In this document: one piece after another, positions 372-1,427 of the stretch
Layout: every line of letters begins with the position of its first letter
Numbering within the stretch: the first letter of the stretch is position 1
IMG/VR virus record: IMGVR_UViG_3300032116_000308
Location: 1 to 50,197 of that record
DNA: 50,197 nucleotides
Strand: one strand, 5' to 3'
Origin: a virus
The notes under the pieces: generated by a model
Databases searched by the model: none
What the model was told of the DNA's origin: nothing
What the model saw: only the letters and a program-made list of their open reading frames with translations
Made by a program: the position numbers and the translations under genes

Positions 372-527
372 ATGATAAGAATTGGTGATATAGTACTTCA
401 TACACTTTCAAAATTATACTTTATTTGTGAAAACAATAAACAAGAAAGGTGGATGAATATGAATTCATATTATGTTAAATCAAATGATGTAACTTTATTA
501 TCAACATACTTTAAAAAACAATTATAA
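372..527 (+). CDS. hypothetical 51-aa protein
   Basis: Short ORF beginning MIRIGDIV and ending YFKKQL. The opening (short beta-type strand, then GD-I-V) recalls small SH3-like or KOW-like phage proteins, but this is only a resemblance. It starts 15 bases after the lipoprotein stop and ends three bases before a tRNA-like gene, in the same ORF-then-tRNA arrangement seen twice more to the right. Codon use is AT-rich like its neighbours. Function unknown. Confidence 0.5.
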   Translation: MIRIGDIVLHTLSKLYFICENNKQERWMNMNSYYVKSNDVTLLSTYFKKQL

Positions 528-530
528 AAT

Positions 531-653
531 AGTCAGGTGGCGAAAAAGTAGACGCAGAGGGACTAACATCCTCGGAATAGGGAGTATAAAAAAGTTAGGT
601 TATAGGTACCGAACACTCCAGACCCCGTACAGGTTCGAATCCTGTCCTGACTA
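531..653 (+). tRNA. tRNA-like gene A (Leu-type body, extended variable arm)
   Basis: Acceptor stem AGTCAGG (531-537) pairs fully with CCTGACT (646-652). A Leu-type D arm follows (GCG 540-542 with CGC 553-555), and there is a perfect T arm (ACAGG, TTCGAAT, CCTGT, 629-645). An anticodon arm can be drawn as GAGGG/TCCTC (557-561/569-573) with a seven-base loop ACTAACA, which puts TAA (Leu) at the anticodon but lacks the usual U33; a CTA triplet is also in the loop. The variable region is 55 bases (574-628), far longer than a normal class II arm, and can form GGAGT/ACTCC (581-585/615-619). No CCA is encoded. Isotype and function are uncertain. Confidence 0.7.
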
Positions 654-667
654 CAAAAATAAAGATT

Positions 668-835
668 ATGGAAACGATTAATATTACAACAGAAAAACTA
701 AAAAAATTAGTTGAAACAGCAATTCAATTTGGGATTGATAGTCCTGAATTAGTCCCAAACCAAAAAGGAAGAGAAAAAATTGCAAATTGGATGGTAGAGA
801 ACACCATTAAAGATATAAAAGGACAAAGGGAATAA
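668..835 (+). CDS. hypothetical 55-aa protein
   Basis: ORF starting METINITTEK and ending KGQRE, rich in Lys and Glu and likely helical. It lies between tRNA-like genes A and B, starting 14 bases after A and stopping three bases before B. The AT-rich composition matches its neighbours. No family recognised; the regular placement between structured RNAs is the main reason to take it as real. Confidence 0.5.
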   Translation: METINITTEKLKKLVETAIQFGIDSPELVPNQKGREKIANWMVENTIKDIKGQRE

Positions 836-838
836 AAT

Positions 839-940
839 AGTCAGGTGGCGAAATTGGTAGACGCGCCTCGATAACCTGGGGTGGGAATAAATTGAGGTCT
901 AACAACGGTTCCCGTATAGGTTCGAATCCTGTCCTGACTG
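839..940 (+). tRNA. tRNA-like gene B (Leu-type body, abnormal anticodon region)
   Basis: Acceptor stem AGTCAGG (839-845) pairs with CCTGACT (933-939). The D arm (848-864) is a good match to tRNA-Leu, and the T arm (916-932) has the standard TTCGAAT loop. The anticodon arm is irregular. CCTCG (866-870) can pair with TGGGG (877-881), leaving a six-base loop ATAACC, or with TGAGG (893-897), leaving a 22-base loop. The first option leaves a 34-base variable region containing GGGAA/TTCCC (883-887/909-913), comparable in position to the long arm of tRNA-like gene A. A UAA anticodon lacking one base, or an inserted segment, are possibilities I cannot separate. Confidence 0.7.
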
Positions 941-962
941 CTAACTTTAAAATTAAATAAAA

Positions 963-1181
963 ATGGAAAATTCATTTTATGACAGACTTCTTATTGAAGC
1001 ACAGGAATTAGCAACAAAAACAAATGCTTTAAACGATTTTATGCGTACACAAGCATTTATTGATTTAGACCGCCAAAATAAAGATTTACTTTACAAACAA
1101 TCAAGATTGATGAATGAGTATTTGCAAGTTTTAGGTCAAAGGTTAGAGATTTTAGGAGAAAAGTTTTCTTTTAAAAAATAA
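963..1181 (+). CDS. crAss001_48-like small helical protein
   Basis: 72 aa, predicted all-helical. The pattern (aromatic-Arg-Leu near residue 8, then E-x-x-x-L, then L-x-x-F, then a LLYKQ segment and a Tyr-Leu-x-x-Leu-x-x-Arg-Leu end) is that of the very common short phage proteins annotated as crAss001_48-related. That assignment is by remembered pattern, not by search. Molecular function of the family is unknown. It sits between tRNA-like genes B and C, ten bases before C. Confidence 0.65.
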   Translation: MENSFYDRLLIEAQELATKTNALNDFMRTQAFIDLDRQNKDLLYKQSRLMNEYLQVLGQRLEILGEKFSFKK

Positions 1182-1190
1182 TCATTAAAT

Positions 1191-1272
1191 GGTCAGGTGG
1201 CGCAAGGGTAGCGTGATGGTGGACCTTCGGGAAGCAAACCATAGGTTACAGGTTCAAGTCCTGTCCTGATTA
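1191..1272 (+). tRNA. tRNA-like gene C (class I body, 17-base anticodon loop)
   Basis: Acceptor GGTCAGG (1191-1197) pairs with CCTGATT (1265-1271), with two terminal G-U pairs. D stem GCGC/GCGT, a five-base variable loop AGGTT (1243-1247) and T arm ACAGG/CCTGT (1248-1264) are all canonical. The anticodon stem ATGGT/ACCAT (1216-1220/1238-1242) is perfect, but its loop is 17 bases instead of seven and holds a CCTTCGGG element that could form a UUCG-capped mini-hairpin. The anticodon therefore cannot be read. The acceptor and T arms nearly match those of A and B. No CCA is encoded. Confidence 0.65.
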
Positions 1273-1274
1273 CT

Positions 1275-1427
1275 ATGATTAATCCCTACTTACCAAAAGT
1301 TGAGTACATCAACGACAGACTTTACGTCTACGGAATGCCGGTCGAAAGATTAATCAAAAACGGTACACGAATTTCATTCGTTTCTTGTGGTATGATCATC
1401 GGCACTACTGGCATTTTTTCAGAGTGA
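1275..1427 (+). CDS. hypothetical 50-aa protein
   Basis: ORF beginning MINPYLPKVE two bases after tRNA-like gene C, ending GIFSE with TGA. It holds a moderately hydrophobic C-terminal third (SFVSCGMIIG) that might be a short membrane or packing helix. No family recognised. It continues the pattern of small ORFs alternating with tRNA-like genes, but codon composition begins to move toward that of the main genome here. Confidence 0.4.
   Translation: MINPYLPKVEYINDRLYVYGMPVERLIKNGTRISFVSCGMIIGTTGIFSE

Follow-up and report, generated by a model that had tools for sequence, protein, structure and literature searches.

Phage tRNA-like RNAs with near-constant ends and hypervariable middles, interspersed with small ORFs

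Gene order and RNA elements at the left end of the contig

The window, i.e. the whole stretch of DNA that was analysed, is a 50,197-base record of an uncultivated virus, which encodes giant structural ORFs, a DnaB-like helicase, a UDG and an RIIA-like protein. The gene content, including a match to PF21825, suggests that the phage is crAss-like. Its left end (positions 1-1430) is AT-rich, with 24-39% GC compared with about 43% across the rest of the contig, and marks an accessory region. Between positions 372 and 1427, three RNA elements (A, B and C) are interleaved with four small ORFs, at gaps of about 2-22 bases, as the original prediction had described. An identical locus of the same phage (L122; 100% identity over 6178 nt) reaches further upstream than the window and holds there a fourth RNA element and a tmRNA. 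The latter (L122:2572-2890, predicted tag GAWYGEKAAA) adjoins the RNA array.

The four ORFs and the elements A-C all lie on the plus strand. The first ORF (372-527, 51 aa), which has no significant family match, stops 3 nt before element A. The second (668-835, 55 aa) is a cassette shared with an unrelated phage, and the third (963-1181, 72 aa) matches PF21825, 'crAss001_48 related protein', with an E-value of 3e-15. The last ORF (1275-1427, 50 aa; no Pfam family) has its start codon 2 nt downstream of the discriminator base in C. Overall, stop codons stand 3-9 nt before and start codons 1-21 nt after each RNA. In L128-L134, L141, L143 and L150, a crAss001_48-like ORF matching that at 963-1181 lies between long inverted repeats, which differ in sequence and keep their complementarity (GTTATGGGCTGCCGT/ACGGTTGCCCATAAC, GTTAGTGGCTGCC/GGTTGCCACTAAC and GTTAGCGGAT/ATCCGCTAAC); these repeats are perhaps another cassette joint.

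A covariance-model search of the locus, as the original prediction had advised, matches the Rfam tRNA model (RF00005) to A (531-653; 34.3 bits), B (839-940; 37.1 bits) and C (1191-1272; 48.5 bits), all above the gathering score of 29, with C74 encoded at positions 654, 941 and 1273, respectively. Element A was detected only by an E-value search of a short region and was missed in the other Rfam search, and ARAGORN finds no tRNA in the window. None of the three elements matches the tmRNA covariance model or contains a tag ORF. Each has the acceptor, D and T arms of a tRNA and lacks the anticodon arm. The expected similarities were also borne out: a similar stretch opens each RNA (ATAAAATAGTCAGGTGGCG in A and B, ATTAAATGGTCAGGTGGCG in C), and the three share the T arm and a 7-bp acceptor stem, AGTCAGG/CCTGACT, of which the variant in C (GGTCAGG/CCTGATT) is still paired, while the sequences diverge between the D arm and the T arm.

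In the model alignment, 13, 24 and 17 unmodelled nucleotides replace the 5-bp/7-nt anticodon arm in A, B and C, respectively, and A and B also carry a long extra stretch ahead of the T arm. Element A is composed of a 7-bp acceptor, a 3-bp D stem and a T arm, with a middle of about 73 nt comprising a 5-bp hairpin (GAGGG/TCCTC) and a GGAGT..ACTCC arm; its MFE fold yields the acceptor, D and T arms. Element B has a Leu-like D arm, its 24 nt at the anticodon-loop position and extra nucleotides before the T arm, which is misfolded in the unconstrained MFE structure. Element C is class-I-like in size, with GGACCTTCGGGAAGCAA as the 17 nt at the anticodon-loop position. Compared with shuffled sequences, A-C show no significant excess in stability (z about -1). 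The ends of A and B match those of the family described below.

A near-constant chassis in viral contigs

The chassis, AGTCAGG...ACAGGTTCGAATCCTGTCCTGACTAC, is near-constant. The pattern GTCAGGTGGCG-N(50-80)-AGGTTCRARTCCTGTCCTGA was found in at least 120 stretches of viral contigs and, since well over 100 further viral contigs have these ends, the pattern in A-C is not a matter of chance. The ends are almost invariant in 201 distinct elements, although this identity is partly by construction because the loci were picked by their ends; among copies of the recurrent middle M1, which were chosen by the middle alone, AGTCAGG is present in 25 of the 29 readable ones. The proposed duplication from one ancestor stands as a common origin of the ends, but not as a local tandem duplication, the chassis being constant across the whole family.

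Among 84,980 bacterial and archaeal species, the same end pattern occurs in only three contigs, all from MAGs, of 5.8-7.5 kb and probably viral. A search of 395 Bacteroidota genomes for the exact 3' end returned only the MAG already found and nothing in the other 394, and the nearest host tRNAs to this end in Bacteroidota are mostly tRNA-Arg(CCT), with 2 mismatches. Host tRNAs that share the acceptor and T arm were found neither in the 85k prokaryote genomes nor in the 394 other Bacteroidota genomes, and none of the GenBank phages matched both ends. This distribution indicates that the family is virus-specific. The elements are clustered, with up to 13 copies per record, and lie on one strand throughout except for one copy in G016; within the fetched loci, strand agreement is complete (210/210). 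In several phages they sit among 14-23 canonical tRNA genes. Among the at least 120 matches listed, M1 and another recurrent middle, M3, appear 7 and 5 times, compared with 44 and 32 times in the full scan, and from these ratios we roughly estimate that the family extends to the order of 700 contigs.

Related elements in L135, L137 and L148 have unrelated acceptor stems (TGCGTAG, GGGGTAG and AGCGCAG), which makes the AGTCAGG family a single branch within a wider group. A second conserved hairpin with a covarying stem, KTGAC[AG]-NNNN-GGAAAGAC-NNNN, is located 3-6 nt upstream of many tRNA-like elements with differing acceptors (L169, L191, L194, L002, L006, L019, L070, L071, L105, L107, L109, L135, L137, L148 and others). 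It is absent before A-C, and is possibly a leader or processing signal.

In 256 distinct elements, 111 of the 129 departures from the acceptor and T stem consensus keep the pairing. The elbow residues are retained in nearly all of these elements: T8 in 256, TTC54-56 and A58 in 255 each, A14 in 242, the pyrimidine at position 48 (Y48) in 241 and GG in 238. C74 is encoded in 98% of the family elements versus 100% of the canonical tRNAs of the same phages, and T-1 is present in 82% versus 66%. The kept stem pairing, the elbow residues, C74 and T-1 imply that the top half of the tRNA is under selection, and with such ends tRNA-type end processing is naturally inferred. By contrast, an anticodon arm (5-bp stem, 7-nt loop, U33) is possible in only 7 of the 256 elements, whereas the same test accepts 387 of 468 canonical tRNAs. 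The acceptor sequence itself can vary around one middle with its pairing kept: the middle M2 is found under AGTCAGG, GACCGGG and AACAGAG, and M3 under AGTCAGG, AGTTAGG and AACAGAG. The constant acceptor could have arisen from recent spread rather than from function. Some elements (L219, L079, L105, L030 and L076) carry an extra D-loop insert, and the same module occurs with and without it (L079 vs L080; L105 vs L119).

Middles as modules and their exchange

The middle between the D and T arms is hypervariable and spans about 25-95 nt. For 181 middles, the folding energy is slightly and consistently below that of dinucleotide shuffles (mean z -0.57, p 7e-12), and many middles recur across different contigs. 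The 27 usable copies of M1 lie in 21 upstream and 23 downstream contexts, both flanks being unrelated in 298 of the 351 copy pairs, and covarying positions (C-G/U-A) are found at columns 63-94 and 52-80. In the 19 sequences of M3, 97.3% of the cells are paired, and 15 pairs show two-sided changes compared with 3.9 after shuffling (SD 1.5; 0/500), a signal that collapses once the partners are slid. RNAalifold independently gives a cloverleaf consensus for M3, with an 8-bp stem and an extra hairpin. An Rfam scan of the modules returned no family but tRNA, and no intron family. Taken together, these comparisons indicate that the middles are discrete, structured modules. They fall into 162 clusters, of which 129 are singletons and 24 are pairs, from which Chao's formula gives about 500 modules as a rough estimate. 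The middle of C is similar to M1 except that it lacks the covarying helix (alignment score 30, compared with at most 22 for shuffles), and those of A and B have no relative above shuffles among the family middles. When the exact cores of the B and C modules were sought in viral contigs, they were found in the same phage only, apart from one unrelated match to C that lacks the chassis.

Several candidate targets of the middles were rejected. Mimicry of rRNA is not supported: when 180 middles were aligned locally with the rRNA of Bacteroidota and E. coli, their best scores were level with those of shuffles, and the top match, a 23-nt, 530-loop-like stretch in L057, is within the null. Antisense pairing to the own locus shows no excess. 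A conserved host target was sought in 80 Bacteroidota genomes, where M2 gave two stray matches and the matches of M1 are scattered, nearly all with 2-3 mismatches. Separately, a spacer of about 180 nt between elements in L078 and L100, 92% identical in these two phages and without a long ORF, may represent yet another kind of non-coding RNA.

The arrays differ between phages in a manner that points to exchange. The protein of the ORF at 668-835 is encoded with 96% identity in L091, which is a separate phage and carries 16 tRNA genes, and the nucleotide identity between the window and L091 extends from the 3' end of element A to the 5' end of B, all of the middles being different. The ORF at 963-1181 recurs together with its linker, nearly unchanged in sequence, in L124, where the element ahead of it has a different middle. 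L048 and L113 are 88% homologous on both sides of one spot, at which their middles differ and L113 has one additional element. Of 2208 homology endpoints, 139 fall in the elements and 30 in canonical tRNAs, which account for 1.8% and 2.05% of the sequence, respectively. Those inside elements pile up at positions 14-27 and at 21-28 from the 3' end. Aligned ends are to be expected because the ends are conserved, and therefore the information lies in the same ends surrounding different middles. Breakpoints at the ends of the chassis imply that RNA middles and small ORFs shuffle independently. Hence, of the ORF+RNA cassette that was originally suggested, the modular layout and the exchange of units between phages hold, but the two parts do not travel as a fixed unit. 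As judged from these alignments, unrelated phages swap modules as well as the small ORFs beside them, and the junctions lie within the constant ends; homologous recombination via these 20-26 nt ends would be the simplest mechanism.

Proposed role and comparison with known systems

We consider it probable that A-C are virus-specific, non-decoding tRNA-shaped RNAs that are matured like tRNAs and display trans-acting modules, and that their ends double as recombination joints. In such RNAs, the acceptor stem, the D and T arms and the residues of the D/T-loop elbow would flank a hypervariable middle in place of the anticodon arm. The transcripts would be matured at their 5' and 3' ends as are the phages' own tRNAs, by RNase P, 3' processing and CCA repair, and the chassis would presumably provide stability and processing. 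The middle would be a structured RNA working in trans, independently of its neighbours, since the modules lack linkage to them. The identical ends would offer short homologies for recombination, making the locus an array in which RNA modules and small accessory genes are shuffled, and punctuation of local mRNAs may be a side effect. What the modules act on is a matter of guesswork: they may interfere with host defence or metabolism, and an anti-defence role would fit the phage-only occurrence, the rapid exchange and the clustering with small accessory ORFs.

The original prediction had raised tRNA punctuation as one explanation. On this reading, the RNAs would serve as sites at which RNase P and the nucleases of tRNA 3' ends divide a polycistronic transcript into small-ORF mRNAs with short leaders, and the middle would drift freely. 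The tight ORF-RNA spacing in the window is in line with this and, in the family, an ORF stop lies within 10 nt upstream of 19% of the elements (3% of random places and 6% of canonical tRNAs) and an ORF start within 25 nt downstream of 27% (14% and 12%, respectively). However, only 12% of family elements elsewhere have an ORF within 60 nt both upstream and downstream, many adjoin canonical tRNAs or one another, and free drift yields neither high-identity middles in unrelated contexts nor covarying helices. Punctuation may thus operate locally but is not a general rule, and we regard it as an unlikely account of the family. It is similarly improbable that the elements are primarily recombination joints, resembling attC cassette sites, whose RNA fold matters for recombination alone. 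Integron cassettes likewise form shuffling arrays, in which small ORFs are placed between structured elements whose ends are conserved and whose centres vary, and the family shares with them the conserved inverted ends, the variable centre, the ORFs in between and the breakpoints at the ends. Unlike in integrons, the junctions fall in both halves of the element, so that ORFs are not tied to one site, and the single crossover point expected of an integron array is not seen: the ORF at 668-835 has different middles on both sides. Moreover, every array keeps its elements on the same strand, the tRNA elbow residues, C74 and D-stem covariation are retained, and the middles are conserved as modules that are not tied to an ORF.

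Two further explanations are very hard to reconcile with the middles. Introns or insertions in tRNA genes, spliced out to give decoding tRNAs, would agree with an insert that stands at the position of the anticodon loop, where group I introns are known in tRNA-Leu; but group I introns are far longer than these inserts, which match no Rfam intron and whose removal does not restore an anticodon arm, and the M3 insert, with its covarying 8-bp stem and further hairpin, leaves no 7-nt loop. Remnants are often present in phage tRNA clusters, so decaying pseudogenes or local sequence damage might come to mind, and are scarcely credible given the retained pairing at the departures from the stem consensus and modules that recur in dozens of contexts with covariation. 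Nor were three ordinary tRNAs found at this locus in relatives, as local damage would entail. The covariation refutes the pseudogene reading for M3, whereas A and B alone could still be degenerate.

Among known RNAs, the family is closest in its top half to canonical tRNA (RF00005) of the Leu-like class II, with which it shares the acceptor, D and T arms, the elbow residues and the C74 and T-1 flanks, and beside whose genes it is found in phages. It differs in lacking the anticodon arm, in a body of about 70 to over 150 nt, and in having one acceptor sequence common to many different bodies. Like tmRNA (RF00023), the elements join a tRNA-like end to a non-tRNA body; unlike tmRNA, they have an intact D arm, and no tag ORF or match to the tmRNA model. 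The TMERs of murine gammaherpesvirus 68 are also viral tRNA-like RNAs bearing other functional RNA, in which extra hairpins follow the tRNA-like part, whereas in the phage RNAs the module stands in place of the anticodon arm, and the family, with hundreds of modules, extends across many phages. In the synthetic tRNA scaffold for RNA production, the RNA of interest is set in the anticodon arm; the phage family is, in contrast, natural and viral, with many different inserts. The phage family derives from tRNA yet is without the feature that defines a decoding tRNA and, in our judgement, no known family combines a single constant tRNA chassis with exchangeable modules in the hundreds. A literature search, which left preprints and most subscription journals outside, found no paper describing such RNAs, and judged on this searchable literature the large phage RNA family is apparently undescribed.

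Returning to the tRNA-shaped, module-bearing RNAs that we favour, a bolder and rather doubtful extension is that they form a natural library, in which hundreds of RNA effectors on one tRNA chassis are traded like anti-defence genes among phages, probably of Bacteroidota, each module being directed to a different host function or defence target. With the family, phage non-coding RNA would gain a class that current software overlooks or misnames: some members are called by ARAGORN as tRNAs with impossible anticodons, and Rfam reports only 'tRNA'. It would illustrate that a single RNA chassis can carry many different structured modules and that RNA and protein cassettes can shuffle by means of short ends held in common. 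It would also supply concrete RNA effectors for testing, in phages that are abundant, uncultured and probably those of Bacteroidota, one of them crAss-like.
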